From NCBI GenBank assembly GCA_025999455.1, contig AP024683.1, positions 2,854,451 to 2,918,450 of the forward strand: a stretch of 64,000 bases of DNA, in the 5' to 3' direction. Below are positions 32,004 to 57,576 of this stretch, piece by piece. The stretch's first letter is position 1. Each line of letters opens with the position of its first letter. Made by a program: the position numbers and the translations under genes. The notes beneath the pieces were generated by a model, which saw only the letters and a list, made by a program, of their open reading frames with translations, had not been told where the DNA came from and searched no databases. The DNA comes from Geminicoccaceae bacterium (GTDB taxonomy: Bacteria > Pseudomonadota > Alphaproteobacteria > Geminicoccales > Geminicoccaceae).

Positions 32004-32006
32004 GCC

Positions 32007-33164: not shown

Positions 33165-33409
33165 GATCGCCGCAGCCGGCGCCCGAAGCGCCCGGCCGGC
33201 TCGAAGAGGCCCTCGCCCGGCTGCGGGCCGCGGCCCTCGCCGCCTTCGCCGCCCGCCTCGGCGTCAGCCTCCCCCACGAGGCGGCACGCGCCCTCGAGGC
33301 CCGCTGGGGCCTCGCCCCGGCGGCCGAGCGCCTGCGCCGCGTGGCCCGCCTGCCCCGGCTGATCCGGCCCCTCGCCTTCCGCTGGCTCCTGCGCGGGACC
33401 CGTCGATGA
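33161..33409 (+). CDS. Small uncharacterised protein in the cas operon
   Basis: An 82-residue ORF is linked by ATGA overlaps at both ends: its ATG overlaps the stop of the MotB-like gene and its TGA overlaps the ATG of the CARF gene. It is predicted helical, rich in Ala, Arg and Leu (for example RLRAAALAAFAARLGVSL), without TM helices or a recognised motif. The double overlap and the operon position argue that it is translated. No function can be assigned. Confidence 0.6.
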   Translation: MRSPQPAPEAPGRLEEALARLRAAALAAFAARLGVSLPHEAARALEARWGLAPAAERLRRVARLPRLIRPLAFRWLLRGTRR

Positions 33410-34557: not shown

Positions 34558-37112
34558 GCGAGCCCCAACCCGAGCTTCCGACCTGCGACGAGCTCGCCCT
34601 CGGCGCCTTCCTGCACGATGCCGGCAAGCTCCTGCAGCGGGCGCTGGGCAGGACGCAGGAGCTGCCGGCCGAAGTCCGGGCGCTCGAGAGCACGCTCTGC
34701 CCCAAGGCCCCCCAGGGCCAGTACTACACCCACAAGCACGTCCTCTTCACCGAGCTCCTCTTCCACGATCTCGAGGTCGAGAAGCTCGGCCTGCCGGGCG
34801 GCCTTCGCCGCAGCTTCGTGCGCGACGCCGCGGTCTTCCACCACCATCCGCGCCCCGAACGCGTCTGGGACCTGCTCGTGGTCGAGGCCGACCGGTTGGC
34901 CTCCGGCATGGACCGCAAGGAGAAGGACCTCTCGCTCGAAGACCCAAACGAGCAGGCGAGCTGGGACCGTTTCCGCAAGACGCCGCTCACGAGCATCCTC
35001 TCGACGGTCCAGCTTCCGGGAAGGGCCGCTCCCACCCCCGTCGTCCACCGCCCGCGGCCGGCCGATCCCGAGACGATCGTCCCCGAGCCGCCGACCCCGG
35101 ACCTGAAAGAGCGCGCACTCCCCACCGACTACGCGGCGACCGCGGAAGCCTTCCGCGCCGCCTGGAAGGATCTCTGCCGCGACCGCCGGCAGAGCGCCGC
35201 CCTCCTTCACGAAGGGGTGATCGGGCTCGCCGAGCGCTTCTGGTGGGCCGTGCCCTCCTCGACCCGCGACGAGCCGGACGTCCCGCTCCTCGACCACGCG
35301 CTCGCCGTCGCGGCCTTCGCCGCCTGCCTCTACCGCCACCACGAGGCGCGCGGCGAGCTTTCGGATGACGCCGCGATCCGCGACCGCACGCGGCCCAAGT
35401 TCCGCCTCCTGCGCGGCGATCTCTCGGGCATCCAGAGCACGCTCTTTCGCCTCGCCTCCCAGCAGGTGAAGGGTGTGAACCGCATCCTCCGCGCCCGTTC
35501 CTTCCTCATGGGCCAGCTCGTCGAGGCGGCCGCCCTCCTCGTCCGGCAGCGGCTCGGCCTGCCGCCCTACGTCGTCCTCATGCGCGCGGGCGGCCAGTTC
35601 ACGCTCCTCCTCCCCGAGCTCGAGGGAATCGAAGGAAAAATCGCCGAGCTGCAGGGCGAGATCGACCAGTGGATGGCGACCCGCTACGCGGGCGAGCTCG
35701 CGCTCCATCTGGGCCTGACCGACCCGCTGCCGCCCGAAGCCTTCCTGCGCGAGCGGATCGGGGCGACGCTCGATCGGCTGCGCGCCGCGACCGAGCGCGC
35801 CAAGCAGGCGCCCCTGCGCGCCTTCCTCGCCGCCAACGGCCCGATCCTGAAGGAGGACTACGAAGAAGGCGCCGACGGCTACTGCCCCGCCTGCGGCGTG
35901 CGGCCGCGCAAGGAACGGTTCGCGGCCGGTGGGCTCCGGCGCTGCGAGGCCTGTCACCACGAGTACCAGCTCGGCGTGCGCCTGCCTCGGTTGCGTCAGC
36001 TCCTCTGGCTCGAGGGTCCGGGCGACGAGCACGCCCTCGCGCTCTTCGGCAAGGTCCGGCTGCGCGCGGTCGCGGCCTGGGAGATGCCCTTCGAGCCGGG
36101 CGGCAACGTCGTCTCCGCCTGGCGCCCCTGGACCGAGACCGATCTGCCCTGGCCCGTGGCGTCCCGGCCGATCGCCAACCACGTGCCCACCTTCCGCGAC
36201 GGCGAGTGGGACGATCCGCGCTACCGCGACATCCCGGAGGACATCCGCGACATCGACCAGCTCGAGGAAGGAGCCATCAAGAGCATGGCCTATCTCGCCG
36301 CTGCCGCGAAAGACCCGGAGACCGAGCGCGGCCGGCCGATGCTCGCGATCCTCAAGGCGGATGTCGACAATCTCGGGCAGATCTTCGCCAGAGGTCTGCT
36401 CAAAAAGCGATCGGACGGCACGGTGGAAGACAACCGCTCGATCGGCCGGCTCGTGGCGCTTTCGCGCGCGCTCGACTGGTTCTTCACGGGATACCTCCCG
36501 CATCTCCTGAGGACGCGCTTTCCCGACACCTACACGGTCTATGCGGGCGGCGACGATCTGTTGTTGATCGGCCCCTGGCTCTCGACCGTGAAGCTGGCAG
36601 GCGAGCTGCGCGAGGCCTTCCGGCGCTACTGCGGCGCCAATCCGAGCCTCGGGCTCTCGGCCGGGATCGCGCTCGTCTCGGATCGCGAGCCCTTGAACCG
36701 CTCGGCCGACGCCGCGGAGGAGGCACTCGGCGCGGCCAAGGCCCGCCCGACAAAGGACGCCCTCGGCTTTTTGGGCGAGGTGCTCGACTGGGCCGATCGC
36801 GAGCGCGGCCTGCCCTGGCTGCTCGAGAAGCAGGACTGGCTCTTCGACCGGCTCGCCGAGCGGGAGGCGGCCACCGCCTTCGCCTACAAGCTGTTGGGCT
36901 TCCTCGAGCAGCGTGAGCGGGCCGAGACGAAGGGCGACACGGCCGCGGCGATCTGGCGGGCCCGCTACAGCTATTTCCTCGCGCGCACTTATCCGAAGCC
37001 CGAGGAGCGGCGCATCTGGCAAGAGTTCAACGCGCTCATGGGGCTCGACCGCAAGGCCGACCCGCCGCCGTCGAAGGTGGCGATCAGCATGGCGCTCTGG
37101 CGCAACCGGTGA
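34554..37112 (+). CDS. cas10: Type III-A Cas10/Csm1
   Basis: The 852-residue large subunit has an intact HD nuclease motif (His21-Asp22 in GAFLHDAGKLLQRA), a first Palm/ferredoxin region LLRGDLSGIQSTLFRLAS, and a zinc ribbon at Cys444, Cys447, Cys464 and Cys467. The catalytic Palm domain carries YAGGDDLLLIG (GGDD at residues 665-668), and a helical D4 domain ends the protein. Both the ssDNase and the cyclic oligoadenylate synthase activities are therefore predicted functional. It assembles with Csm2-5 and crRNA and is activated by target RNA. It overlaps the CARF gene and is followed after 10 bases by csm2. Confidence 0.95.
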   Translation: MSEPQPELPTCDELALGAFLHDAGKLLQRALGRTQELPAEVRALESTLCPKAPQGQYYTHKHVLFTELLFHDLEVEKLGLPGGLRRSFVRDAAVFHHHPRPERVWDLLVVEADRLASGMDRKEKDLSLEDPNEQASWDRFRKTPLTSILSTVQLPGRAAPTPVVHRPRPADPETIVPEPPTPDLKERALPTDYAATAEAFRAAWKDLCRDRRQSAALLHEGVIGLAERFWWAVPSSTRDEPDVPLLDHALAVAAFAACLYRHHEARGELSDDAAIRDRTRPKFRLLRGDLSGIQSTLFRLASQQVKGVNRILRARSFLMGQLVEAAALLVRQRLGLPPYVVLMRAGGQFTLLLPELEGIEGKIAELQGEIDQWMATRYAGELALHLGLTDPLPPEAFLRERIGATLDRLRAATERAKQAPLRAFLAANGPILKEDYEEGADGYCPACGVRPRKERFAAGGLRRCEACHHEYQLGVRLPRLRQLLWLEGPGDEHALALFGKVRLRAVAAWEMPFEPGGNVVSAWRPWTETDLPWPVASRPIANHVPTFRDGEWDDPRYRDIPEDIRDIDQLEEGAIKSMAYLAAAAKDPETERGRPMLAILKADVDNLGQIFARGLLKKRSDGTVEDNRSIGRLVALSRALDWFFTGYLPHLLRTRFPDTYTVYAGGDDLLLIGPWLSTVKLAGELREAFRRYCGANPSLGLSAGIALVSDREPLNRSADAAEEALGAAKARPTKDALGFLGEVLDWADRERGLPWLLEKQDWLFDRLAEREAATAFAYKLLGFLEQRERAETKGDTAAAIWRARYSYFLARTYPKPEERRIWQEFNALMGLDRKADPPPSKVAISMALWRNR

Positions 37113-37122
37113 GGAGAGGGCG

Positions 37123-40732: not shown

Positions 40733-40791
40733 TCGAGTTCCCGGGCGGCGACACCGAGTGGGTCGACGAATCCGCCATCGAGTGGAGGTGA
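40669..40791 (+). other. Out-of-frame C-terminal tail of csm5
   Basis: This stretch has codon use like its neighbours and encodes GRRAFYEGEEVRVRQRSGG followed by a short beta-rich end with TEWVDES, in the -1 frame relative to the csm5 body. It has no start codon or ribosome-binding site of its own. Its stop lies three bases before the Csm6-like ATG, the spacing expected of an intact csm5 end. Confidence 0.6.
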
Positions 40792-40793
40792 GC

Positions 40794-42137
40794 ATGCCCG
40801 CCCCCGACGCCGCCCAGGTCCGGACCGTTCTCCTCTGCACGGTCGGCGGCAGCCCCGACCCGATCGTCAAGGCGATCGAGGCCCGCCGTCCCGACCGTGT
40901 CGTCTTCCTCTGCACCGGCCCGTCCGGAACGAATCCGGGCTCGCGCGTCCAGGTCGAGGGGCCGGTGCCGGCACCGCCCACGCCGCCCCCTCGCCCCGAC
41001 CGGCCGCACGATCCACGCCCGATCCCCGAGCGCGCCGGCCTCGCTCCCGGCTCCTGGGAGGTCGTCGAGGTCCCGGCCGACGATCCGGACACCGTCTTCT
41101 GGCGCTGCCGGCAGCTCCTGCGCCGGCTGCGCGCCGAGCGGGCGACCCGCGAGGCGCGGGTCTGGGTCGACTACACGGGCGGCACCAAGAGCATGACGGC
41201 GGGGCTCCTGGCCGCCGCGATCGGCCTCGACGATGCGACCCGCCCGCAGCTCGTCACGGGCGAACGGGCCGACCTCGTCCAGGTCCGCGGCGGGACCGAG
41301 CGCACGGTCGAGGTCCCGGTCGACGCCATGCTCGCCGACCGCGTCCTCGCCCAGGCCGAAGCGCTCTGGGGCCGCTACGCCTATGCCGCCGCCGCGGCCC
41401 TTCTGGAGCCGGTCGCGAAGAGCCTCGCCATCGCCGAGGGTGCCCCCGCGGATCTCCGCGAGCTCGTGAGCCGGGCGCTGCGCGCGTCCGAGCTCCTGGC
41501 CGCCTGGGACCGGCTCGACCACGCGGGTGCGCTGCAGCTTCTTCGCGAGCATCGGCTCGCCTCGACCACGCTGCTGCGGCCCTACGACCATCCGCTGCGC
41601 AAGCTCGCCGCCCCCGACAGGCGGATGCCGCTCCTCCTCCTCGATCTCTGGCACAACGCCCTGCGACGGGCCGCGACGGGCGCCTTCGACGACGCGGTCG
41701 CCCGCTGCTACCGGCTGGTCGAGGCGACCGCCCAGCATCTCTTGGCCTCCCGGTTCGGGATCGACACGGGCCGGCTCGAGCCGAGCCGCTTCGTCGAGCG
41801 CCTGCCCGAGCGCGAACGGCCGGCCTGGTCCACCCGCAAGGTGGCGGGGCTGCTCGACGCCTGGCGTCTGTTTTTCTGGCTGGTGCCCGAGGACGATCCG
41901 ATCCGCCACGCGTTGCGCGCCGAGCGGCCCGACGGCAACCCCATGGCGCAGCTCCAGGCCTGGCTCGAGACGCGCAACTATTCGCTGTTCGCGCACGGTT
42001 TCGCGCCGGTCGGCCGCGACGGCTTCGAGGAGGTGCGGCGCTGGATGGAGCGCTTTTGGCTCGATGCGATCTGGCCGCAGCTCGGCTCGAAGGAGGGGCT
42101 CGCTCAATTGCCGACAAGCTTGTCGGGCTTGACGTAG
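40794..42137 (+). CDS. Csm6-like CARF-HEPN protein, TIGR02710 family
   Basis: The 447-residue protein has an N-terminal CARF domain: VLLCTVGGSPDPIVKAIEA at 12-30, and the ligand-loop motif WVDYTGGTKSMTAG around 124-137. The C-terminal helical domain ends with the HEPN RNase motif R-x6-H at Arg394 to His401 (RNYSLFAHGF). This is the TIGR02710 group. When Cas10 makes cyclic oligoadenylate, such proteins become non-specific RNases that slow or kill the cell. The ATG lies directly after csm5. The stop codon is ten bases past a 16-bp palindrome, and the CRISPR leader begins there. Confidence 0.87.
   Translation: MPAPDAAQVRTVLLCTVGGSPDPIVKAIEARRPDRVVFLCTGPSGTNPGSRVQVEGPVPAPPTPPPRPDRPHDPRPIPERAGLAPGSWEVVEVPADDPDTVFWRCRQLLRRLRAERATREARVWVDYTGGTKSMTAGLLAAAIGLDDATRPQLVTGERADLVQVRGGTERTVEVPVDAMLADRVLAQAEALWGRYAYAAAAALLEPVAKSLAIAEGAPADLRELVSRALRASELLAAWDRLDHAGALQLLREHRLASTTLLRPYDHPLRKLAAPDRRMPLLLLDLWHNALRRAATGAFDDAVARCYRLVEATAQHLLASRFGIDTGRLEPSRFVERLPERERPAWSTRKVAGLLDAWRLFFWLVPEDDPIRHALRAERPDGNPMAQLQAWLETRNYSLFAHGFAPVGRDGFEEVRRWMERFWLDAIWPQLGSKEGLAQLPTSLSGLT
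42111..42126. promoter_or_regulatory. Perfect 16-bp palindrome at the array side of the csm6-like gene
   Basis: CCGACAAGCTTGTCGG is a perfect palindrome inside the last codons of the Csm6-like gene, about 147 bases before the first CRISPR repeat. A 15-of-16 copy lies at 55133-55148, beyond the other end of the array. A dyad with no loop suggests a homodimeric DNA-binding protein rather than a terminator. Confidence 0.5.
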
Positions 42138-42272: not shown

Positions 42273-45200
42273 CTTCAGCTCTCTGCCCTGACGAAGAAGG
42301 GATTAAGACTGCCGAGCTTGTACGGGTGCCGGCCCTCGACGTCTTCAGCTCTCTGCCCTGACGAAGAAGGGATTAAGACGTAACGTCGCAGCGACGTTAC
42401 GGACCGTAACGCCGCCTTCAGCTCTCTGCCCTGACGAAGAAGGGATTAAGACTCGACGCTCTTCTCCATCGTCAAACATATGGGCGTACTTCAGCTCTCT
42501 GCCCTGACGAAGAAGGGATTAAGACGCCGCGCGGCCAGCGACCGCGCCGCCCGGAGGCGCTTCAGCTCTCTGCCCTGACGAAGAAGGGATTAAGACCCAC
42601 CTCGGGCGCCGGCTCATAGCCGGCCGCCCGCTTCAGCTCTCTGCCCTGACGAAGAAGGGATTAAGACCCCGCGCCGTCCGCAAGCTCGCGACGATGCACA
42701 ACCCTTCAGCTCTCTGCCCTGACGAAGAAGGGATTAAGACGTAACCGTTGGCGTGCACCAGCACGCACAACCGGGCTTCAGCTCTCTGCCCTGACGAAGA
42801 AGGGATTAAGACGCCGCGCCGGCCGGCGTTGGTTGCGTCTCCCCGCCTTCAGCTCTCTGCCCTGACGAAGAAGGGATTAAGACCGCCGATCTCCTCCGCC
42901 ACGACGTCGGCGTCCTTCTTCAGCTCTCTGCCCTGACGAAGAAGGGATTAAGACGCGATGTCGTCCTCGAACCTGCACCGCAGGCCGGCCTTCAGCTCTC
43001 TGCCCTGACGAAGAAGGGATTAAGACGCGAGCACGCGCCAGCAACTCATTCGCGGCCGCTCTTCAGCTCTCTGCCCTGACGAAGAAGGGATTAAGACCCT
43101 ACCGTGAAGGAGATCGCAACTTGTTTGCCGGCTTCAGCTCTCTGCCCTGACGAAGAAGGGATTAAGACTGCATCTGCACTCTTCCACGCCGCCGTCCCGC
43201 GCTTCAGCTCTCTGCCCTGACGAAGAAGGGATTAAGACAGCGGGTCAGCATCCGGCCGATCATCACGGCCGCCTTCAGCTCTCTGCCCTGACGAAGAAGG
43301 GATTAAGACACCGCCGACTTCTCCAGCTCGTCGGCCTGCCGATCTTCAGCTCTCTGCCCTGACGAAGAAGGGATTAAGACTCTTTATCCGGCTGCCCCTA
43401 CGCCTCTAACGGGCCTTCAGCTCTCTGCCCTGACGAAGAAGGGATTAAGACCTCTTGCGGCTCGATTGTCCAATCCGGTTGCGGCCTTCAGCTCTCTGCC
43501 CTGACGAAGAAGGGATTAAGACAGAGCCGCCGCGATGGCCTTCTTGACGACCGGCTTCAGCTCTCTGCCCTGACGAAGAAGGGATTAAGACCTGTCGGAT
43601 GGTCGGCAGGTTGGCGATGGCAAATACCTTCAGCTCTCTGCCCTGACGAAGAAGGGATTAAGACCGCCTTCTCGGCACGCTCTAGCACCACCCGAACCCT
43701 TCAGCTCTCTGCCCTGACGAAGAAGGGATTAAGACACATCACCTTTGAAGAACCTGTACCATTTCTTCACTTCAGCTCTCTGCCCTGACGAAGAAGGGAT
43801 TAAGACGGTGCGTCCGGCGAATATTAGGTCGCTCGATGTCCTTCAGCTCTCTGCCCTGACGAAGAAGGGATTAAGACTTCAGCTCTTCCGCGCATTCACG
43901 CGCCGCCGCGATCTTCAGCTCTCTGCCCTGACGAAGAAGGGATTAAGACGGCGCCGACAATGTCGCCGCGATTGACGATCGCCTTCAGCTCTCTGCCCTG
44001 ACGAAGAAGGGATTAAGACGAGGTCGACGACGTAGGCATCCGACGCCGTGGCGGCTTCAGCTCTCTGCCCTGACGAAGAAGGGATTAAGACACATCGTCT
44101 GTATCGAGTTCGAGGATTGGCCTCTTCAGCTCTCTGCCCTGACGAAGAAGGGATTAAGACACCGCGATGTCACGACATTCATCCGCCGCGCGGCCTTCAG
44201 CTCTCTGCCCTGACGAAGAAGGGATTAAGACCGAAGCCGCCGCAGAAGCCCCGAGGCTCGCCACCTTCAGCTCTCTGCCCTGACGAAGAAGGGATTAAGA
44301 CGCCGAGCAACACGAGATCCCCGCGGAACCGCTGCCTTCAGCTCTCTGCCCTGACGAAGAAGGGATTAAGACGGGTCGGCACGGCCCCTGCCGTCGCCGA
44401 CCCGCACCGCTTCAGCTCTCTGCCCTGACGAAGAAGGGATTAAGACGCCTGCTGCTCCCGCAGCTCGGCGGCCAGGCCGTGCTTCAGCTCTCTGCCCTGA
44501 CGAAGAAGGGATTAAGACGCCGCGTCCGCGCGCAGCGCCGCGCGCCCATCCGCCTTCAGCTCTCTGCCCTGACGAAGAAGGGATTAAGACGTCAGGCCGC
44601 CTGCTGCTCCCGCAGCTCGGCGGCCCTTCAGCTCTCTGCCCTGACGAAGAAGGGATTAAGACGATCGTAACCACGGCAACCCCGAACGGACTCCACCCTT
44701 CAGCTCTCTGCCCTGACGAAGAAGGGATTAAGACGATCAGGGCGGAGCAGGCGAGCGCCACCTCGGGCTTCAGCTCTCTGCCCTGACGAAGAAGGGATTA
44801 AGACCCACGAGCAGCCGGTCCAAATCGGCCCTGGTATGCCTTCAGCTCTCTGCCCTGACGAAGAAGGGATTAAGACCTCGAGGCGGTGAGCCATTCGCAT
44901 CGCGTAACAGCTTCAGCTCTCTGCCCTGACGAAGAAGGGATTAAGACTGCAGAGCACGACGAGCTCCCTCTGCGACGCCTCCTTCAGCTCTCTGCCCTGA
45001 CGAAGAAGGGATTAAGACCCCCCGGCTGGCCCAACAGCAAAAGGGCCCGGGCCTTCAGCTCTCTGCCCTGACGAAGAAGGGATTAAGACGAGCGACCGCG
45101 AGCAGCGAATCGAGGCGCGGTTCCTTCAGCTCTCTGCCCTGACGAAGAAGGGATTAAGACTGCGCCGGGACCGTGCGCGTGGGCGCGAAGTACAGCTTCA

Positions 45201-48200
45201 GCTCTCTGCCCTGACGAAGAAGGGATTAAGACCCGCATCCAGATCGACCATTTGCCTCCTTCCACGCTTCAGCTCTCTGCCCTGACGAAGAAGGGATTAA
45301 GACGTCACCGCAGCGCTTGATCAGCGCCGTCCACCCGGCTTCAGCTCTCTGCCCTGACGAAGAAGGGATTAAGACCTCTTCCATCGCCGACAGCTTCTCC
45401 TGCATCTGCCTTCAGCTCTCTGCCCTGACGAAGAAGGGATTAAGACCCCACTGCTTATGAAATATTGCCGCGCCCTTTGCTTCAGCTCTCTGCCCTGACG
45501 AAGAAGGGATTAAGACATCAGGCAACCCCGCGAGCCACACGTCGAGCCGCTCTTCAGCTCTCTGCCCTGACGAAGAAGGGATTAAGACCGTCCACCCGGC
45601 GGGAACGTCCTCGCCGTCCTGGCTTCAGCTCTCTGCCCTGACGAAGAAGGGATTAAGACCGCTCGACTTGCTCAGACTCCCAGTCATAGCCGGCTTCAGC
45701 TCTCTGCCCTGACGAAGAAGGGATTAAGACAAGTCGAGGAGGAGAGCCTCGACGGCGTCGACGGCTTCAGCTCTCTGCCCTGACGAAGAAGGGATTAAGA
45801 CTGCAGCTGGACGTATAGGTGCGCCGCGTTGAGCCTTCAGCTCTCTGCCCTGACGAAGAAGGGATTAAGACACGAACTTCTCGGGCTTGTGCCTGGCGGA
45901 ACGGCTTCAGCTCTCTGCCCTGACGAAGAAGGGATTAAGACCATATTCGCAATGCGGGTACCGTGGCTTGCGGAACCTTCAGCTCTCTGCCCTGACGAAG
46001 AAGGGATTAAGACACCGACGCCGGCGTGCACTGCGCAAGATCCGGCCCTTCAGCTCTCTGCCCTGACGAAGAAGGGATTAAGACGGCGCGTTCCCCAAGA
46101 AAATTTCGACGTAGTCACGCCTTCAGCTCTCTGCCCTGACGAAGAAGGGATTAAGACCCTTCGCAACTGCAGGCGCTGCACCGGCCGCCCTTCAGCTCTC
46201 TGCCCTGACGAAGAAGGGATTAAGACCGAACGTCTGCCGCGGCGCCTTCACACCCCGCTTCTCTTCAGCTCTCTGCCCTGACGAAGAAGGGATTAAGACA
46301 GCTCTCGGCATGCAACTGATCACAAATGACGCTCTTCAGCTCTCTGCCCTGACGAAGAAGGGATTAAGACCCAGCGCGGCGCGCGACGCTGTCCATCATC
46401 TCCCTTCAGCTCTCTGCCCTGACGAAGAAGGGATTAAGACAGCTAACGCCATGCGCTTTCACGTACTGCCCTTCCTTCAGCTCTCTGCCCTGACGAAGAA
46501 GGGATTAAGACCAGCCGCGCGCCCCGCGCGATCGCGCGATCGAGCCCGCTTCAGCTCTCTGCCCTGACGAAGAAGGGATTAAGACGGCCCTCCACGAGCG
46601 CCGCTCGATCCACCATGTCTTCAGCTCTCTGCCCTGACGAAGAAGGGATTAAGACGCCTCGACCGCGTCGGGCGCCTTGTCGAGCTCGTCCTTCAGCTCT
46701 CTGCCCTGACGAAGAAGGGATTAAGACATCGCCGACAGCTTCTCCTGCATCTGCACTCCCGACTTCAGCTCTCTGCCCTGACGAAGAAGGGATTAAGACT
46801 TTGTCGAACCTAATAGTTCCGGTCCAGACCGGCCTTCAGCTCTCTGCCCTGACGAAGAAGGGATTAAGACTCCGGGCCGCCGCCAGTCTCGACGAGGCGG
46901 CGGCGCTTCAGCTCTCTGCCCTGACGAAGAAGGGATTAAGACGATCTCGCGGCAGAGCGCGCGCGGATCGACACGCTCTTCAGCTCTCTGCCCTGACGAA
47001 GAAGGGATTAAGACTTCGCATCGCGTAACAGTTCTTGCAGCCGGCGCCTTCAGCTCTCTGCCCTGACGAAGAAGGGATTAAGACCCGGTATCCTCGGCCG
47101 CAGCCGGGATCGGCGCCTCGCTTCAGCTCTCTGCCCTGACGAAGAAGGGATTAAGACGCCGCGACGTCGATGCCCTGCACGAGGTCGTCGGCCTTCAGCT
47201 CTCTGCCCTGACGAAGAAGGGATTAAGACCCAGGCCGTGGACATAATAGTCCACGACCTCCTCGCTTCAGCTCTCTGCCCTGACGAAGAAGGGATTAAGA
47301 CAACGATGCGCATTACTTCCACGTCTGTCTCCCTCCTTCAGCTCTCTGCCCTGACGAAGAAGGGATTAAGACGCCACGCCTCGCAAACGATGCGCATGAC
47401 TTCCATGCCTTCAGCTCTCTGCCCTGACGAAGAAGGGATTAAGACGTTCCCCTCGTCCGTCAGGTTCTCGTCGCCCATCACCTTCAGCTCTCTGCCCTGA
47501 CGAAGAAGGGATTAAGACCGGCGGCCAGGCCGTGGACATAATAGTCCACGACCCTTCAGCTCTCTGCCCTGACGAAGAAGGGATTAAGACCCCGGCCCCC
47601 CTCTCAGGCCGCCTGCTGCTCCCGCTTCAGCTCTCTGCCCTGACGAAGAAGGGATTAAGACGCGCTCTAGCGAGCGCCTCGGCCAGCGCGGTCTCTTCAG
47701 CTCTCTGCCCTGACGAAGAAGGGATTAAGACCGGGCCGCCGCCAGTCGCGACGAGGCGGCGGCGCCTTCAGCTCTCTGCCCTGACGAAGAAGGGATTAAG
47801 ACGTCGCGCGGTAGCGCGGCCCGGCCCCCCTCTCAGCTTCAGCTCTCTGCCCTGACGAAGAAGGGATTAAGACGGGCGGCCCCGGTTGCGTTGCCCCGGC
47901 GCGGCGGCTTCAGCTCTCTGCCCTGACGAAGAAGGGATTAAGACAATAGTCCACGACCTCATCGAGGTCACGCCCGCCTTCAGCTCTCTGCCCTGACGAA
48001 GAAGGGATTAAGACGGTCGAGCCACCAGAGCCTCACGCCGGCCGCGACCTTCAGCTCTCTGCCCTGACGAAGAAGGGATTAAGACATGCGCATGACTTCC
48101 ATGCGCCATCTCCCTCGGCTTCAGCTCTCTGCCCTGACGAAGAAGGGATTAAGACTCGTGCGCCGGCGGTGCCTTTGGCGGCATTTCTTCTTCAGCTCTC

Positions 48201-51200
48201 TGCCCTGACGAAGAAGGGATTAAGACGCCACCACCGCGACCAGCGCGTCGGTCGGCAGCCCTTCAGCTCTCTGCCCTGACGAAGAAGGGATTAAGACCTC
48301 GGGCGCCGGCTCGTAGCCGGCGGCCCGCAGGCCTTCAGCTCTCTGCCCTGACGAAGAAGGGATTAAGACGGACGGCCTCGATCAGGGCCTTCGCAACTGC
48401 AGGCGCTTCAGCTCTCTGCCCTGACGAAGAAGGGATTAAGACGCCTGCTGCTCCCGCAGCTCGGCGGCCAGGCCGTGCTTCAGCTCTCTGCCCTGACGAA
48501 GAAGGGATTAAGACGTGTGGCGCCGGCGATCTCGAGGCCGCGGTCCGCTTCAGCTCTCTGCCCTGACGAAGAAGGGATTAAGACGGCGGCGCGCCAGGCG
48601 CCACGCCTCGTAAACGATGCTTCAGCTCTCTGCCCTGACGAAGAAGGGATTAAGACCATGACTTCCATGCGCCCTCTCCCTCGGCCGCCCCCTTCAGCTC
48701 TCTGCCCTGACGAAGAAGGGATTAAGACCGGCGGTGGCGGGGTGAACAAGGTAGGTCCGCCGATCTTCAGCTCTCTGCCCTGACGAAGAAGGGATTAAGA
48801 CCGAGGTCACGCCCGCAGGCTGTGCGGGCGCCGGGCTTCAGCTCTCTGCCCTGACGAAGAAGGGATTAAGACGCCGGGTCGCGCGGTAGCGCGGCCCGGC
48901 CCCCCTCTTCAGCTCTCTGCCCTGACGAAGAAGGGATTAAGACACAAGAAAAGCACCGAACACGTCGCTCTCAGTACCCTTCAGCTCTCTGCCCTGACGA
49001 AGAAGGGATTAAGACCGTAAACGAGGCGCATGACTTCCATGTCCCTCTCCCTTCAGCTCTCTGCCCTGACGAAGAAGGGATTAAGACGATCATCCGCTGC
49101 AACGTTCGCTCGCTTACCCCCTTCAGCTCTCTGCCCTGACGAAGAAGGGATTAAGACACTTCCGCGTCTGCAGACTGCCCTCAACATACACTTCAGCTCT
49201 CTGCCCTGACGAAGAAGGGATTAAGACTGCAGCCCGCGAGCGGGTTCCACGTTCTTTCTGTCTTCAGCTCTCTGCCCTGACGAAGAAGGGATTAAGACCT
49301 GGATCCATAGGTCGAAGCGGTCGTCTCCGACCTCTTCAGCTCTCTGCCCTGACGAAGAAGGGATTAAGACACGCATCCCAGTCCCGCCACTCGCCGCCAC
49401 GGCGCTTCAGCTCTCTGCCCTGACGAAGAAGGGATTAAGACTCTCTCCCGCCCGAGGGACAATGCCCTCGGGTGCTTCAGCTCTCTGCCCTGACGAAGAA
49501 GGGATTAAGACTGGGAGACGGTGGTCGACGAGACCACCGTCTCTGCCCTTCAGCTCTCTGCCCTGACGAAGAAGGGATTAAGACCTCAAGAACGCCGCGG
49601 ACCGCCGTACCGATACTCCTTCAGCTCTCTGCCCTGACGAAGAAGGGATTAAGACGTCCGCCAGCCCGTGGCCTCAGCCACGGGCTGGCCTTCAGCTCTC
49701 TGCCCTGACGAAGAAGGGATTAAGACCCCACGACCGGGAGAAACCCCGGTCACGGAACTCTTCTTCAGCTCTCTGCCCTGACGAAGAAGGGATTAAGACC
49801 CGTACCGATACTCGTACGGCGCTCGGGTCCGCAGCTTCAGCTCTCTGCCCTGACGAAGAAGGGATTAAGACGGAATGCGAGTCGTTGGATTGTCATACGA
49901 CACCCTTCAGCTCTCTGCCCTGACGAAGAAGGGATTAAGACATCGCTGTGGCGACGAAGATCGTCACCCCGACGACTTCAGCTCTCTGCCCTGACGAAGA
50001 AGGGATTAAGACCGAACGGCGGCGGCGGTTCCACCGCCGCTGCTCTTCAGCTCTCTGCCCTGACGAAGAAGGGATTAAGACAGCCACGGCAGCGGCATCA
50101 GCCGGGACCGCGGCCTTCAGCTCTCTGCCCTGACGAAGAAGGGATTAAGACCGCGGGCCTCGGACAGAACCGCCCTGAGTAGTCTGACTTCAGCTCTCTG
50201 CCCTGACGAAGAAGGGATTAAGACGACTTCCCGGAGACGATGTTCTTGGACGCCATGGCTTCAGCTCTCTGCCCTGACGAAGAAGGGATTAAGACGATGC
50301 TCGCCCTCGGCGAGCGGCACCGGCGGATAGAGCTTCAGCTCTCTGCCCTGACGAAGAAGGGATTAAGACATCCGCGTGACGATAAACGACGAGCACGTAG
50401 CCGTCTTCAGCTCTCTGCCCTGACGAAGAAGGGATTAAGACCCGGCCGCCCAACGCAAACCGTGACGTGTCCCCCAACCTTCAGCTCTCTGCCCTGACGA
50501 AGAAGGGATTAAGACGACGTCCCCTGATTGCACTCCATGGCCGGCGCATCCTTCAGCTCTCTGCCCTGACGAAGAAGGGATTAAGACGGGGCGGGCGAGC
50601 AGGTCTTCCACGGCCAGCCGGCTTCAGCTCTCTGCCCTGACGAAGAAGGGATTAAGACCGGCCGTGCCACAAGGGTTCGGCCGCTCGCTCCTTCAGCTCT
50701 CTGCCCTGACGAAGAAGGGATTAAGACGGGGGACGGGGGCGGCACCGCTTTGGCGGGGCGCCCTTCAGCTCTCTGCCCTGACGAAGAAGGGATTAAGACT
50801 GCCGTGGCGACGAAGATCGTCGCCCCAACGACTTCAGCTCTCTGCCCTGACGAAGAAGGGATTAAGACTCTTCTAACCCCCCGATTTTCAGTCGAGTGAA
50901 CTTCAGCTCTCTGCCCTGACGAAGAAGGGATTAAGACAAGCGGTCGTCACCGACTGCCGTGGCGACGAACTTCAGCTCTCTGCCCTGACGAAGAAGGGAT
51001 TAAGACAGCGGTCGTCACCGACTGCCGTGGCGACGAAGACTTCAGCTCTCTGCCCTGACGAAGAAGGGATTAAGACCGACGAAGATCGTCGCCCCAACGA
51101 CGATTGCCCTTCAGCTCTCTGCCCTGACGAAGAAGGGATTAAGACCGGCCGTGCCACAAGGGTTCGGCCGCTCGCTCGCGCTCTTCAGCTCTCTGCCCTG

Positions 51201-51724
51201 ACGAAGAAGGGATTAAGACTGGAGACGGGACTGTTAACAAGATTTCGAGGTTGTCTTCAGCTCTCTGCCCTGACGAAGAAGGGATTAAGACAATCCTGTG
51301 TACCGAATTTTTCGAGTGCTCGACTTCAGCTCTCTGCCCTGACGAAGAAGGGATTAAGACATCGGTCGAAGCCGTATTCCACTCGCATTTTTCCTTCAGC
51401 TCTCTGCCCTGACGAAGAAGGGATTAAGACATCGACACCTCCTCTGTCTTTGTCTCAAGGCCGCCGCCTTCAGCTCTCTGCCCTGACGAAGAAGGGATTA
51501 AGACGCGAACGACGCTCGCCGGCCCAGTGTCTGGGCAGACTTCAGCTCTCTGCCCTGACGAAGAAGGGATTAAGACCGCGAACGCTTCGGTGTTGTTCTC
51601 CGACCACGGCACGACTTCAGCTCTCTGCCCTGACGAAGAAGGGATTAAGACCTCGGGAGCTCCGAGCTCCGAGCTCCCGAGCTCCCCCTTCAGCTCTCTG
51701 CCCTGACGAAGAAGGGATTAAGAC

Positions 51725-51975
51725 GAAAAGCGCCGTCCGGGGGTGTCCCCCGGACGGCCTTCAGCTCTCTGCCCTGACGAAGAAGGGATTAAGACATATC
51801 AGTGTGCCGAACCTCAACAAAACAGGTACCTTCAGCTCTCTGCCCTGACGAAGAAGGGATTAAGACTCGCCGGCCCGGTGTCTGGACACAGAAGGTCCGC
51901 CCCTTCAGCTCTCTGCCCTGACGAAGAAGGGATTAAGACCTGCCACAGTGCTTCCATTTCCTTCGCCTGGTCGCG
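51725..51975 (+). repeat. Four-spacer block, first copy
   Basis: Four consecutive spacers (starting GAAAAGCGCCG, ATATCAGTGTG, TCGCCGGCCCG and CTGCCACAGTG) recur in the same order and without change at 52157-52407, a shift of 432 bases. Two other spacers lie between the copies. This is an internal segmental duplication of the array by recombination between repeats. Confidence 0.95.
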
Positions 51976-52156
51976 CTTCAGCTCTCTGCCCTGACGAAGA
52001 AGGGATTAAGACGGCCGTCGGGCTGCAACAGCGTCTCGTCGCCGAGCCTTCAGCTCTCTGCCCTGACGAAGAAGGGATTAAGACCGCAACTTCGCAGGAT
52101 TTTTCGACAGCTCGACGAGCTTCAGCTCTCTGCCCTGACGAAGAAGGGATTAAGAC

Positions 52157-52407
52157 GAAAAGCGCCGTCCGGGGGTGTCCCCCGGACGGCCTTCAGCTCT
52201 CTGCCCTGACGAAGAAGGGATTAAGACATATCAGTGTGCCGAACCTCAACAAAACAGGTACCTTCAGCTCTCTGCCCTGACGAAGAAGGGATTAAGACTC
52301 GCCGGCCCGGTGTCTGGACACAGAAGGTCCGCCCCTTCAGCTCTCTGCCCTGACGAAGAAGGGATTAAGACCTGCCACAGTGCTTCCATTTCCTTCGCCT
52401 GGTCGCG
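52157..52407 (+). repeat. Four-spacer block, second copy
   Basis: Exact second copy of the block at 51725-51975. The spacers on either side differ from those flanking the first copy, so the duplicated unit may have been six spacers long with later loss, or four with a separate insertion. Confidence 0.95.
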
Positions 52408-53893
52408 CTTCAGCTCTCTGCCCTGACGAAGAAGGGATTAAGACTTGTCCGCCAGCACGGCGGCTGGCGCAGCGAAAAACGTCTTCAGCTCTCTGCCCTG
52501 ACGAAGAAGGGATTAAGACCTTCGACTTTGGTCAAACTTAAAAGCATACGCCTTCAGCTCTCTGCCCTGACGAAGAAGGGATTAAGACGGCGGCGTCGCG
52601 AACGACGCTCGCCGGCCCAGTGTCCTTCAGCTCTCTGCCCTGACGAAGAAGGGATTAAGACCAGTGTCTGGGCAGACGAGATCGTACCGCCAGCCCCTTC
52701 AGCTCTCTGCCCTGACGAAGAAGGGATTAAGACGCGCCCTCAACGGGCGATCCGGCGCAGGCGCCGGACTTCAGCTCTCTGCCCTGACGAAGAAGGGATT
52801 AAGACCCATCTTTGTTATTTCTTTTTGCAAATCGGTAACCGCTTCAGCTCTCTGCCCTGACGAAGAAGGGATTAAGACGGCAGTATGCGCCGCGTATACC
52901 TCTGGCCACACGCCTTCAGCTCTCTGCCCTGACGAAGAAGGGATTAAGACGGGTGACCGCGACGGTAATCGTCACCCCCACAATGCTTCAGCTCTCTGCC
53001 CTGACGAAGAAGGGATTAAGACCGCGACGGTAATCGTCACCCCCACAATGACCCCTCTTCAGCTCTCTGCCCTGACGAAGAAGGGATTAAGACGGGGTCA
53101 AGTTCTTTAACATCACCCCTCCATCAACCTTCAGCTCTCTGCCCTGACGAAGAACGGATTAAGACCCCGGCCAACCGACGAATTTCCGTCGGCTGGCCTG
53201 CCCTTCAGCTCTCTGCCCTGACGAAGAAGGGATTAAGACCACCGTCGTCCGCGCGGATCGCCGTGCGGACGACGCTTCAGCTCTCTGCCCTGACGAAGAA
53301 GGGATTAAGACCGCCTCCGCCGCCCGAGGGACAATGCCCTCGGGCGGGACTTCAGCTCTCTGCCCTGACGAAGAAGGGATTAAGACTGACGTCCAAACGT
53401 GATCTCCTGCTTCCCAAAACGCTTCAGCTCTCTGCCCTGACGAAGAAGGGATTAAGACCCAGCCGCCTCGGCGAGGGTCTGGCTCACGATGAGCCCTTCA
53501 GCTCTCTGCCCTGACGAAGAAGGGATTAAGACACCACGTCCGGACGGGGGGGACGGGGGTGGGGTTCTTCAGCTCTCTGCCCTGACGAAGAAGGGATTAA
53601 GACGTAGAGGACCCCGGGGGTGAGCTATCATCACCATATCGCTTCAGCTCTCTGCCCTGACGAAGAAGGGATTAAGACCTCCATTTTCACTCGACTGAAA
53701 ATGGGGGTTCGGCCTTCAGCTCTCTGCCCTGACGAAGAAGGGATTAAGACTCTGGGCGGGCGAGCAAGTCCTCAATGGCCAGCCCTTCAGCTCTCTGCCC
53801 TGACGAAGAAGGGATTAAGACCCTTCTCTGGCCGTCCCCTCCATTTTCACTCGACTCTTCAGCTCTCTGCCCTGACGAAGAAGGGATTAAGAC

Positions 53894-54146
53894 GACGTGC
53901 GTACAATGGTACAAAAGAAGAGAGCGGCCCTTCAGCTCTCTGCCCTGACGAAGAAGGGATTAAGACTGACGTGGGTGATGACCATAGCGTCATCACCCAC
54001 ACTTCAGCTCTCTGCCCTGACGAAGAAGGGATTAAGACGACGTGCGTACAATGGTACAAAAGAAGAGAGCGGCCCTTCAGCTCTCTGCCCTGACGAAGAA
54101 GGGATTAAGACTGACGTGGGTGATGACCATAGCGTCATCACCCACA
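53894..54146 (+). repeat. Tandem duplication of two spacer-repeat units
   Basis: The spacers starting GACGTGCGTACAATGG (53894) and TGACGTGGGTGATGACC (53967) recur at 54039 and 54112, a shift of 145 bases, which is exactly two units. This is a direct tandem duplication. Confidence 0.95.
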
Positions 54147-55132
54147 CTTCAGCTCTCTGCCCTGACGAAGAAGGGATTAAGACCCGCCGCCGCCAGCTTG
54201 GCGACGGCGGCGGTCAAGCTTCAGCTCTCTGCCCTGACGAAGAAGGGATTAAGACGGGGGTCATAGGGGGGGGGTTCTTAGCGGACCCGCCCTTCAGCTC
54301 TCTGCCCTGACGAAGAAGGGATTAAGACCCGGTCGTCGCCAAGGATGTTGGCGACGACGATCATCTTCAGCTCTCTGCCCTGACGAAGAAGGGATTAAGA
54401 CCCCGGCGACGAGAAGAGTAAGAAGGTCAGGCATCGCCTTCAGCTCTCTGCCCTGACGAAGAAGGGATTAAGACGGTGCGTAGTGGTACGCACCCAACCA
54501 CCGGACCACGCTTCAGCTCTCTGCCCTGACGAAGAAGGGATTAAGACGTGGCGGGCGAACGCGTCCCAATCCCGCCACGCCCCTTCAGCTCTCTGCCCTG
54601 ACGAAGAAGGGATTAAGACGCCGGGGGGTTAGGTTTTTCATAGGGGGGCCTTCAGCTCTCTGCCCTGACGAAGAAGGGATTAAGACCCCACACTGCCGAG
54701 GTGACCAGGTCGCCGGGCGCGCTTCAGCTCTCTGCCCTGACGAAGAAGGGATTAAGACCCGGGCCCGGGCCACGGGGACCCAGACCACAGCGACCTCTTC
54801 AGCTCTCTGCCCTGACGAAGAAGGGATTAAGACCCCTCGGGCGGGATACGAACGACAACCCCCCCGAGGCTTCAGCTCTCTGCCCTGACGAAGAAGGGAT
54901 TAAGACCGCCCGAGGGACGATACCCTCGGGCGGGATACGAACTTCAGCTCTCTGCCCTGACGAAGAAGGGATCGAGACCGGTGGCGGCGGCGAGAACGCC
55001 TCCAACTCGCGGTCCTCGAAAAAAAACTCGCAGAGGGGGGTGGGGTGCGGGGAGGGACCGCAGGGTCCCGCCCCGGATCTCTTCGCGCCGCTCTCTCTCC
55101 TCCCCGCCGGCCACGGCCCGGTCGGGCGGGGG

Positions 55133-55209: not shown

Positions 55210-55494
55210 ATGGCGCAGCGTCTGTTGCATCTCGTCTGTTACGACGTGCGGTGTCCGCGTCGGCTCGCCCGGGTGCTCAAGGTCGTCAAGGGCTGGAGCA
55301 CGGGTGGGCAGAAGTCGGTGCACGAATGTTGGCTCACGGCGCGCGAGCTCGCCGAGCTCGAGCGCGAGCTTTCGCAAGTCGTCGACCACGAGGAGGATTC
55401 GCTCCTGATCTTGCGCCCCGATCTCTCGGCCGGGGTGCGCACGCTCGGCATCGCGCAGAAGCCGCGCGATCCGCGGTTCCTCTACGTCGGCTGA
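55210..55494 (+). CDS. cas2: Cas2
   Basis: The 94-residue protein begins MAQRLLHLVCYDVRCPRRLA, with the Cas2 ferredoxin-fold start and the YD pair, followed by KVVKGW, QKSVHECWL and LLILRPD. Cas2 dimers bridge two Cas1 dimers in the spacer integrase. It is the first of four adaptation genes after the array; the cas1 start follows 29 bases after its stop. An upstream in-frame extension lacks Cas2 features. Confidence 0.9.
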   Translation: MAQRLLHLVCYDVRCPRRLARVLKVVKGWSTGGQKSVHECWLTARELAELERELSQVVDHEEDSLLILRPDLSAGVRTLGIAQKPRDPRFLYVG

Positions 55495-55523
55495 CCCCCA
55501 TCCGGCGCGGGAGTTCCTTCGCC

Positions 55524-56480
55524 TTGCGCACGCTCTACGTCGATCGCAAGCACGCGTTCCTCGACCACGATTCGGGTGCGCTGCTCGTGCGCGTGCCGGG
55601 CGAGCGGCCGGCGCGGGTGCCGCTCGCCGGGCTCGAGCGGGTCGTGGTGCGTGGTGCGGCCACGCTCGCGACCGGCCTCCTCGCCGCGCTGCACGAGCAC
55701 GATGTGGGGCTCGTCGTGCTCTCGGGCCGGCGGAGCGAGCCCACGGCGACCCTGCTCGGCCGGCCGCATGCCGACGTGGCGGTGAAGATCGCCCAGCTCG
55801 AGCTCGTGCGCGATCCGGCGGCCCGTCTCGCCTACGCCCGGCGGCTCCTGGACGCCAAGCTCGCGGGCCAGCTCCGCCTTCTGGGCGATCTCCTCGACGC
55901 GCGGCCCGACCAGCGCCGCCTCCTCGAGGCCGCGCGCGGGCTCCTCGAGGCCACGCGGGGGAAGCTCGCGGAGGCCGATCTCGCCGGCCTGCTCGGGCTC
56001 GAGGGGACGGCCGCGGCGGCCTTCTTCCAGGGCCTCGCCGCGGTCCTGCCGCCTTCGCTCGGCTTTTCGGGCCGCAACCGCCGGCCACCCAAGGACCCGG
56101 TCAACGCCTGCCTCTCGCTCGGCTACGCGCTCGCCACCCACGAGGCCGGTCGCCAGGCCCAGCTCGTGGGACTCGACCCGATGCTGGGCTTCTTGCACGC
56201 GCCCGTGCCGGGCCGCCCGGCGCTCGCCTGCGATCTCGTCGAGCCCGTGCGCTGCCACGTCGACCGCTTCGTCTGGCGCCTCTTCGCCGAGGGCCGGCTC
56301 CGTCCCGAGCACGCCCGCGTCACGGCCGAGGGGTGTCTTCTGGGCAAGGCCGGCCGCGAGATCTTCTACACGGCCTACGAGGCCGAGCTCGCCGCCCTGC
56401 CGCGGCTGTTGCGGCAGATGGCGACGGCACTCGTGCGCGAGCTCCGCGCCCGGCCGCTTCCGGAGTGGCTCTCGTGCTGA
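55524..56480 (+). CDS. cas1: Cas1 integrase
   Basis: The start is a TTG at 55524, giving 318 residues beginning (M)RTLYVDRKHAFLDHD, the expected Cas1 start. The N-terminal beta domain ends near residue 75. The helical catalytic domain has all three metal ligands: Glu160 (GLEGTAAAAFF), His225 (DPMLGFLHAP) and Asp237 (ALACDLVEP). It should catalyse spacer integration. Its stop overlaps the start of the second Cas1-like gene. Confidence 0.94.
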   Translation: MRTLYVDRKHAFLDHDSGALLVRVPGERPARVPLAGLERVVVRGAATLATGLLAALHEHDVGLVVLSGRRSEPTATLLGRPHADVAVKIAQLELVRDPAARLAYARRLLDAKLAGQLRLLGDLLDARPDQRRLLEAARGLLEATRGKLAEADLAGLLGLEGTAAAAFFQGLAAVLPPSLGFSGRNRRPPKDPVNACLSLGYALATHEAGRQAQLVGLDPMLGFLHAPVPGRPALACDLVEPVRCHVDRFVWRLFAEGRLRPEHARVTAEGCLLGKAGREIFYTAYEAELAALPRLLRQMATALVRELRARPLPEWLSC

Positions 56481-57262
56481 TCCCCGTCCATCTCGACGCG
56501 GTCGAGACCCCGCTCCTCGTCGCGCTCGACGGGCCCTCGCTCCTCGTCCGGCGTGCCGGGGCGGCCGATCTGCGGTTGCCGCTGCGCCGGCTCGCGCGGA
56601 TCAGCGTGCGGGGCCCCGTGACCTTCGCGGCCGAGGCGCTCCCGGCCTGCCTCGAGGCGGGTGTGCCCGTGACCTTCCTCGACGGGTTCGGCCGGGCGCT
56701 CGGTCAGCTCCTGCCGCTCCACCGCCGCCAGCAGGACCTCGCCGCGCTGATCGACGAGGCCGCCGCCGCGGGCCGCTTCGCCGCCTTGCGCGCCTCCTGG
56801 CGGGCGGCGATCGAGCGACGCGCGGTCGTTTCGGCCGTGACCGCGCTCGGCCTTCGCACGCCGGATCTGCGGGCGCGCACGGTCCGGCTCGCCGCCGCCC
56901 GGGCGGTCGACCGGTTCGGCTCGCCCGTGCCGACCGAGCTCCTCGAGGCGCGGCTGCGCGCCCTCTTCCAGGGGCTCGTGGCCGAACGCCTCGTCGAGGA
57001 AGGTGCGGGTGCCCGCTTCCAGGGCCAGGACCCGGATCTCGACCTCGCCGCCGACCTCGACGCCGCGCTCTCTTTCGAGCTCTGGCCGCTCGTCCGTGAC
57101 CTCGCGCGTTACCTCGCCGTCCACGGCCGCAAGCACCGCCAGGAGCGCGAGCTCCAGGCGCGGATCGTGCGCCGGTTCGAGGCGGCGCGGCCGCGGCTCG
57201 AGCGGGCCTTGGGCGAAGCTTTGGCGATGCTCCGCCGTTCCTTGCGGGAGGTGCTCCATTGA
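56474..57262 (+). CDS. Cas1-like protein lacking the catalytic triad
   Basis: A GTG at 56474 (alternative 56465) starts a 262-residue protein. Its N-terminal 80 residues follow the Cas1 beta domain (LRLPLRRLARISVRGPVTFA, then CLEAGVPVTFLDGFGRALG). The rest is helical but shorter than in Cas1. There is no Glu in an ExxxxxxF helix and no GxxH segment. A remnant DLAADLDAALSFELWPLVRD aligns with the Cas1 DLVEPFRP region. It is therefore probably inactive as an integrase and may form a heteromer with the active Cas1. Both neighbours overlap it, so all four adaptation genes are likely translated together. Confidence 0.75.
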   Translation: MLIPVHLDAVETPLLVALDGPSLLVRRAGAADLRLPLRRLARISVRGPVTFAAEALPACLEAGVPVTFLDGFGRALGQLLPLHRRQQDLAALIDEAAAAGRFAALRASWRAAIERRAVVSAVTALGLRTPDLRARTVRLAAARAVDRFGSPVPTELLEARLRALFQGLVAERLVEEGAGARFQGQDPDLDLAADLDAALSFELWPLVRDLARYLAVHGRKHRQERELQARIVRRFEAARPRLERALGEALAMLRRSLREVLH

Positions 57263-57576
57263 GCCGTCGGACCGGTCAGTGGCTCGTCGCCTACGACATC
57301 GCCTGCCCGAAGCGGCTCGCCCGGGTCCATCGGCTCATGGTGGCCTGGGGGCTGCCCGCGCAATATTCCGTCTTCCTGTTGGTCGCGACGCGCGAGGCGG
57401 TGGGCTCGCTCGTGGGCGAGCTCGCCCGGCTGATCCATCCGCGCCAGGACGATGTGCGGATCTACCGGCTGGAGCCCGGCTGGCAGCGCAGTCTCGGCGT
57501 GGCGAGCTTGCCGCGCGGGGTATTGGCGCTGTTCGATCGGCTCGCGGTTTCGGCGCGGTCCGGCGGGTCGTCCTAA
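57259..57576 (+). CDS. cas2: Second Cas2
   Basis: The TTG start overlaps the preceding stop (TTGA). The 105-residue protein reads GQWLVAYDIACPKRLARVHR, then GLPAQYSVFLLVATREAV and DDVRIYRLEPGW, which is a standard Cas2 with the YDI pair. It differs clearly from the first Cas2, so it is not a recent copy. It may pair with the Cas1-like protein. Confidence 0.88.
   Translation: MSRRTGQWLVAYDIACPKRLARVHRLMVAWGLPAQYSVFLLVATREAVGSLVGELARLIHPRQDDVRIYRLEPGWQRSLGVASLPRGVLALFDRLAVSARSGGSS

Follow-up and report, generated by a model that had tools for sequence, protein, structure and literature searches.

The window examined here is a stretch of 64,000 nucleotides (nt) from a Geminicoccaceae bacterium, positions 2,854,451-2,918,450 of its single 3.76-Mb contig. 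It carries a type III-A CRISPR-Cas locus on the + strand, in which the array, and then the adaptation genes, lie beyond the effector genes. Our subject is the set of four adaptation genes, here called cas2a, cas1, cas1' and cas2b, whose start codons were assigned by reading of the sequence:

55210..55494, + strand: cas2a, 94 amino acids (aa); Pfam CRISPR_Cas2 (PF09827) 52 bits, cut-off 23.8; motif GGQKSV[F/H]E
55524..56480, + strand: cas1, 318 aa, TTG start; Pfam Cas1 (PF01867) 230.7 bits, cut-off 22.3, profile positions 1-282 of 283
56474..57262, + strand: cas1', 262 aa, GTG start; Pfam Cas1 32.4 bits, over residues 15-88 only
57259..57576, + strand: cas2b, 105 aa, TTG start; Pfam CRISPR_Cas2 49.3 bits, cut-off 23.8

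An earlier note on this DNA had described an operon of cas2, cas1, a catalytically inactive cas1-like gene and a second cas2, joined after cas1 by stop-start overlaps. The order and the common strand were borne out, as were the overlaps, of 7 nt (GTGCTGA) between cas1 and cas1' and of 4 nt (TTGA) between cas1' and cas2b. The two Cas2 proteins differ as strongly as had been claimed, with a mutual identity of 32%. In alignments of 65 rows, the window included, Cas2a keeps GGQKSV in all 65 rows, and Cas2b conserves Y-D-I (65/65), Q-Y-S-V and D-D-x-R-x-Y. Cas1 has the active residues Glu160, His225 and Asp237, for which the numbering of the note was exact, each of them invariant in all 65 rows.

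The second Cas1 is 56 residues shorter than the first (the note had estimated about 55), and lacks the Glu and His positions as predicted. In the profile-profile alignment the Glu160 segment is absent from Cas1', and His225 is matched by D185, at which 6 of the 65 rows have His. Asp237 aligns with D193, where 45 of 65 rows have Asp, so that this residue is retained in part. Besides D193, the acidic or histidine columns conserved in at least 60% of rows are D18 (44/65), an Asp column opposite R100 (39) and E235 (55), and no conserved alternative acidic/histidine triad is evident in the alignment columns, in keeping with the inactive Cas1 of the earlier note. Conserved residues of Cas1' include P35 (65/65), W108 (61/65), G72 (60/65), R41 (58/65) and E235, on a mean column identity of 25%.

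Cas1' nonetheless retains more of the Cas1 architecture than the N-terminal beta domain that the note had credited it with. That domain is indeed kept, and the AlphaFold model of the single chain (predicted local distance difference test 93.9, predicted template modelling score 0.73) has a helical domain besides. Foldseek returned 152 matches at E<=0.001, the best 50 of which are Cas1, Cas1-complex or casposase entries, although the titles of two among these 50 (3god and 2yzs) do not name Cas1. Cas1 structures head the VIA list as well; with VIA-align, the beta domain superposes at a root-mean-square deviation (rmsd) of 1.4 Å over 78 positions (5xvo_D) and the helical domain at 3.3 Å over 162 (9p11_D). 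Whole-chain alignments give an rmsd of 12-16 Å, suggesting that the interdomain angle of Cas1' differs. At the profile level, hhalign matches Cas1' to Cas1 at 99.3-99.7%, nearly end to end. Judged by its sequence, Cas1' would be a Cas1-fold protein that is not itself an integrase, a hidden site being conceivable.

Distribution and descent of the four-gene set

Cas1' is recognised at E 7.5e-15 by a PADLOC profile, PDLC01185 (residues 18-202 against positions 14-195 of 246), whose title is "Cas1, diverged variant, second in the loci". Using this profile, we identified matches in 2 of 289 genomes of the class and in 8 of 398 genomes of a phylum ring, the genome studied here being counted in each. 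Two matches, one from each set, proved to be ordinary Cas1 and were rejected (G082, at locus L020, beside a large frame judged by eye to be cas9, and G532, at L019). After inspection, the phylum set yielded six other bearers, with five complete four-gene loci and one cut by a contig end. The single congener in the class draw gave no match to PDLC01185, and a plasmid search with Cas1' gave none.

Because the alignment of six Cas1' sequences held no sufficiently conserved stretch, a species-genome collection was scanned with the Cas2a motif, giving 190 relatives. The best 80 of these 190 were kept, a sample biased to Cas2a-like loci, and genes in the 80 loci were called by models built from six loci. 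All four genes lie on one strand in 64 of the 80 loci, found via Cas2a alone. The survey of co-occurrence proposed in the earlier note was thus answered in its favour, cas1, cas1' and cas2b accompanying Cas2a over chance. The gap between cas1 and cas1' is -71 to +59 nt in 60 of the 64 four-gene loci, and the layout departs from that of the window in L044, which has cas2a between cas1 and cas1', and in L053, which has a distant cas2b. Six incomplete loci end at a contig end (L022, L049, L058, L077, L079 and L082), four have a short or broken cas1 (L033, L071, L095 and L100), and L064 has cas2a alone.

The bearers comprise alpha-, beta-, gamma-, zeta- and deltaproteobacteria, Acidobacteria (Bryobacteraceae), anammox bacteria, Nitrospira, a thermodesulfovibrionian and an Arcobacter metagenome-assembled genome. 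The four-gene set is widespread over several phyla, and is not a local oddity. A relative of the type III proteins of the window lies within reach in 51 of the 80 loci and an array in 48, and the repeats of module loci mostly end in GGGATTAAGAC or a close variant.

We placed 16 Cas1 and 16 Cas1' sequences from four-gene loci in a maximum-likelihood tree with 41 other Cas1, in which long branches were flagged. Cas1' forms one clade (support 100/99), and has one origin among the 16 sampled. Cas1 of the four-gene loci likewise forms one clade, with weak support (90/23). A quick tree of Cas2 resolves Cas2a into one weakly supported clade (83) and splits Cas2b in two. The sub-groups L037/L056/L087, L029/L078, L021/L026 and L063/L097 recur in the Cas1 and Cas1' portions of the first tree and in the quick Cas2 tree. 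Of the four proteins Cas1' has diverged most rapidly, with a mean identity of 0.24, where Cas1 has 0.44, Cas2a 0.51 and Cas2b 0.39, and partial correlations of distances are highest for Cas1-Cas1' (0.40), followed by Cas1'-Cas2a (0.36), Cas1-Cas2a (0.34) and Cas1-Cas2b (0.30).

The family of Cas1' thus already has a name in the PADLOC library, and its members stand after an active cas1 both here and in the 64 four-gene loci (with cas2a in between in L044). The PDLC01185 entry gives a name only. A full-text search, with most subscription papers and all supplements beyond its reach, found neither the module nor its mechanism, second cas2 or central spacer signature described, and we found no mention of a second Cas1 in the accessible passages of the 2025 classification (PMC12669027). 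The central spacer signature beside the module, described below, is new here.

Central AA/TT signature in the spacers

We examined spacers, oriented by the repeat, from the window array, from 47 Cas2a loci with a usable array and from a second array of the same genome (L116). Of the 47 loci, 41 are four-gene loci, the other six being L039, L061, L064, L075, L092 and L100. Spacers of 28-42 nt were kept from module arrays and of 26-50 nt from controls, and duplicates within a locus were dropped. Control arrays with fewer than six spacers were left out (fewer than three in a set of proteobacterial genomes with csm3), and 9 nt were cut from each spacer of L094, where the repeat had been detected too short.

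The strongest position-wise signal lies in mid-spacer, where A is favoured at positions 16-17 and T at 18-20, and counting from the 3' end gives the mirror image (z up to 9.5 and 12.1; z values throughout assume independent spacers and are overstated, the count of loci being safer). Second in strength comes the last base, with an excess of C (5.1) and a deficit of A (5.3). To quantify the central signal, each spacer was scored for A at the two positions just before its centre and for T at the two just after it, in comparison with shifted positions. The 1358 module spacers score 1.670 at the centre versus 1.132 in the flanks (z 18.2), and the 41 four-gene loci alone 1.698 versus 1.233 (1019 spacers, z 13.8). 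By contrast, 1228 control spacers passed through an identical pipeline (41 arrays in 44 control regions with no Cas1' match) score 1.239 versus 1.160 (z 2.6). Counted by locus, the signature is positive in 32 of the 33 loci with at least 10 spacers, these 33 being the two own arrays, L039, which lacks Cas1', and 30 four-gene loci. In spacers of 31-37 nt the dyad departs from the exact middle by no more than about half a base, and its peak falls off within about 2 bases; controls are flat. The contrast between module and control is unchanged after matching for length or for G+C content.

Within the genome itself, the window array scores 1.482 versus 0.777 (z 8.1) and L116 gives z 9.5, whereas L115, an array beside an ordinary Cas1, gives z -0.3. 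The signature is likewise weak or absent in control arrays, including those of type III-A loci without the module. Ten plasmid csm3 loci without it (303 spacers) show a difference of -0.081 (z -1.2), and proteobacterial genomes with csm3 in which no module was found (166 spacers) give z 0.3. Of the latter spacers, 149 come from stretches holding csm3, and the 17 of L167 lie on a different contig of a csm3-bearing genome; 88 (L165, L167 and L169) also fall within the 1228-spacer control set. The control arrays were not typed by effector, the csm3 plasmid records hold other systems too (e.g. type I-D genes), and one L149 control array may not be CRISPR.

The earlier note had proposed that the inactive Cas1 sets asymmetry. 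A small shift of the centre towards the 3' end is weakly consistent with this (z 3.42 over the 1358 spacers; controls z -0.6), and by locus 17 of the 26 with at least 15 spacers shift to the right, 7 to the left and 2 not at all. Against it, the signature is nearly palindromic, and the shift is absent in the two own arrays (0.02 and -0.05).

Spacers of the window array (42310-54941) are rich in perfect hairpins, with stems of at least 7 in 31 of 170, against 4.3 in shuffled sequence and 4.6 in random flanking DNA. Corresponding counts, for spacers of 24-45 or 24-60 nt, are 42 of 1052 in 47 other loci (9.0 expected), 13 of 137 in L116 (2.2) and 9 of 101 in L115 (4.1). Hairpins were considered as a cause of the central signature and rejected, since it stays when hairpin spacers are excluded (1211 spacers, 1.705 versus 1.159).

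A proposed heteromeric integrase and its alternatives

In the ordinary Cas1-Cas2 integrase, one polypeptide supplies both the catalytic and the non-catalytic Cas1, and its two Cas2 subunits are identical. In E. coli structures the prespacer centre lies on the Cas2 dimer, so that a central palindromic signature around which both arms vary is what one would expect if the bridge reads the DNA, or bends it, at the twofold axis. The ordinary hexamer comprises four Cas1 around two Cas2 (PMC9048733, accessible text), with a catalytic Cas1a and a non-catalytic Cas1b (PMC8102632, accessible text). The module resembles it in its active Glu/His/Asp Cas1, its Cas2-profile proteins and the existence of non-catalytic Cas1 copies; the difference is that here a separate gene seems to serve each role, an unusual bridge of two unlike Cas2 being the presumed hallmark.

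We infer that the four genes probably encode a heteromeric integrase, with a Cas2a/Cas2b bridge, a catalytic Cas1 and Cas1' in the non-catalytic seats. Cas1, Cas1', Cas2a and Cas2b would form one spacer-acquisition complex of a type III-A system free of reverse transcriptase (RT), with Cas1 as its integrase. A Cas1 fold without an evident active site would suit the non-catalytic seats, and Cas1' would most likely fill those of the ordinary Cas1(4)-Cas2(2) hexamer permanently. Cas2a and Cas2b, probably as a heterodimer, would make up the central bridge and grip the prespacer middle, favouring an AA/TT step at the dyad through a bend or a narrow minor groove, and the length of both arms would be set by measuring from this centre, which yields spacers about 34 nt long. 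Module spacers are indeed about 34 nt long, against medians of 34-41 nt, mostly 39-40, in csm3 proteobacterial arrays without the module. Only tentatively do we go further and suggest that the Cas2a/Cas2b bridge selects prespacers by central sequence or shape (the AA/TT dyad) and not by an end motif like a protospacer adjacent motif (PAM), with the dead Cas1 in the non-catalytic seats and the asymmetry of the integrase split into separate genes.

A heteromeric integrase in which the inactive Cas1 picks substrates had been put forward in the earlier note. The joint retention of the four genes over several phyla, and of a Cas1 fold stripped of its active site, speaks for the heteromer, and it is from these that we infer the complex itself. 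Substrate choice gains support for the module as a whole, through the central signature, but less so for Cas1' as the picker, since L039 keeps the signature without it. The Cas2 pair or Cas1 would thus be a likelier reader than Cas1', on 18 spacers only: the three loci lacking Cas1' score 1.72 versus 1.08 (permutation p 0.0025), a result carried by L039. As the four genes travel together in complete loci, and the reduced loci L028, L039, L061, L075 and L092 are spacer-poor, gene content cannot name the protein that causes the signature.

Several observations weigh against the proposed complex. Three loci consist of cas2a-cas1-cas2b without cas1' (L039, L061 and L092), and a search of their genomes with the Cas1' profile gave nothing but ordinary Cas1 and one broken frame. 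Two others hold cas2a and cas2b with no cas1 match (L028, 3894-4425, and L075, 4955-5792). The parts of the module are thus separable, and the Cas2 pair can outlast both Cas1 genes. The partial correlations of Cas2a-Cas2b (0.18) and Cas1'-Cas2b (0.10) are low, and the former does not favour a tight Cas2a/Cas2b pair, a point that is suggestive only. As to the signature, L062 (29 spacers) is the one locus without it among the 33 counted. Among the loci lacking Cas1' only L039 (10 spacers) has it, L061 (6) having none and L092 holding 2 spacers. L214, a csm3 locus with a module-like repeat and no cas1 in the stretch, shows no signature in 10 spacers, and the control spacers other than the 303 from plasmids (925) show a weak central trend (0.131, z 3.8).

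The absence of Cas1' from three otherwise complete loci and their genomes, which implies that integration may not strictly need it, and its fast evolution relative to Cas1 would also fit a regulator or decoy outside the integrase, which holds Cas1 inactive or handles prespacers before integration. We regard this as unlikely, given the placement of cas1' between cas1 and cas2b, its one origin among the sampled sequences and its full two-domain Cas1 fold. Moreover, the arrays lacking Cas1' are short (10, 6 and 2 spacers, where the 26 four-gene loci that are not truncated hold 2-96), which suggests that Cas1' aids acquisition, although three loci prove nothing. That the second Cas1 is a decaying duplicate losing its function, as its low column identity might indicate, is very improbable, because it is kept as an open frame in 64 loci over several phyla, with one origin, conserved residues and a confident fold. 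The operon might instead encode two integrases for different substrates or arrays, Cas1-Cas2a and Cas1-Cas2b (or Cas1'-Cas2b). The different conserved motifs of the two Cas2 groups, the weak Cas1'-Cas2b and Cas2a-Cas2b co-divergence and the two own arrays with near-identical repeats agree with this. We nevertheless consider it improbable, since the central signature is common to both own arrays, the four genes are kept together, and Cas1'-Cas2b could hardly integrate when Cas1' has no evident active site.

The AA/TT signature might also owe nothing to the integrase and reflect the type III effector, or source DNA rich in hairpins. Type III-A adaptation in Streptococcus thermophilus, which is RT-free as here, favoured hairpin-forming DNA (PMC9048733, accessible text), and the window array is likewise hairpin-rich. 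The signature, however, is missing from type III-A loci without the module (the 303 and 166 spacers above) and persists without hairpin spacers, making such an origin rather unlikely. A heteromeric integrase remains the reading we prefer. The module differs from the RT-Cas1 modules, which likewise serve type III effectors, in that its Cas1 is unfused and the locus holds no RT. The window has none, as the earlier note had stated, and the sole RVT_1 match of the genome lies at 1,488,057, about 1.4 Mb off.

The accessible text of one review (PMC9048733) describes direct adaptation by the type III systems tested as PAM-independent, and asks whether type III Cas1-Cas2 recognises secondary structure in prespacer DNA. 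A module with separate genes for the catalytic and non-catalytic Cas1 and for two Cas2 makes each role separately deletable, the spacer centre offers a quantitative read-out by sequencing alone, and heteromeric integrases could serve DNA recording.

The type III-A locus and the other arrays of the genome

Upstream of the adaptation genes, cas10 and csm2 to csm5 stand in one locus with an array, which identifies it as type III-A, and cas6 is also present:

27519..28478, + strand: cas6; Pfam CRISPR_Cas6 59.4 bits, cut-off 25
33370..34557, + strand: CARF gene of the NE0113 family; PADLOC CARF E 8.8e-106, Pfam Cas_NE0113 143.6 bits; open frame, start unsettled
34554..37112, + strand: cas10 (type III-A); PADLOC Cas10 E 3.4e-98
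37090-37650, 37660-38460, 38457-39407 and 39404-40690, + strand: csm2, csm3, csm4 and csm5; PADLOC, starts unsettled
40758..42137, + strand: csx1-type CARF-HEPN gene; PADLOC CARF_HEPN E 3.7e-98
42273..54978, + strand: CRISPR array with 178 repeats of 37 nt and 170 different spacers, most of these 33-36 nt long

The interval from cas6 to the CARF gene holds open frames at 28561-29934, 29481-30749, 30750-32003 and 32000-33409, the first two overlapping. None has a Pfam match above cut-off, and the three scanned against PADLOC gave nothing beyond a weak LmuB match. It is possible that they are ancillary genes of a new type.

Of the 178 array repeats, 176 are exact; the last carries 2 changes, and one other, inside a 109-nt interval, carries 1. 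The altered last repeat suggests that the oldest end of the array faces the adaptation genes, and this polarity would place the leader in the 135 bases that precede the array at 42273. A phage search with the first 7978 bases of the array gave no matches. Blocks of repeats and spacers are duplicated at 51688-51987 and 52120-52419, and also at 53854-54143 (300 nt at 100%, 145 nt at 99%), indicating that spacers were copied by slippage or recombination.

The second own array, L116 (region 2,994,000-3,013,999; array at about 2,999,668-3,009,748), has 138 spacers and a repeat nearly identical to that of the window, with no cas1 nearby, the Cas1 matches of the genome lying at 2.04 and 2.91 Mb. A second own adaptation module (L115/L101, around 2,037,756) comprises a cas1 within a 559-aa open frame, which is perhaps a Cas4-Cas1 fusion, a cas2 and a 102-spacer array whose repeats end in GGATTGAAAC.

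At the two ends of module spacers base preferences are weak and alike, and the last base is often C, the null for the ends having used interior positions that contain the central signature. Module spacers are also pyrimidine-rich on the strand of the CRISPR RNA (crRNA) in all 33 loci with at least 10 spacers (mean 0.544 overall, z 17.7; L115 0.505), which shows that they are oriented and would follow from a need for crRNAs to pair with mRNA.

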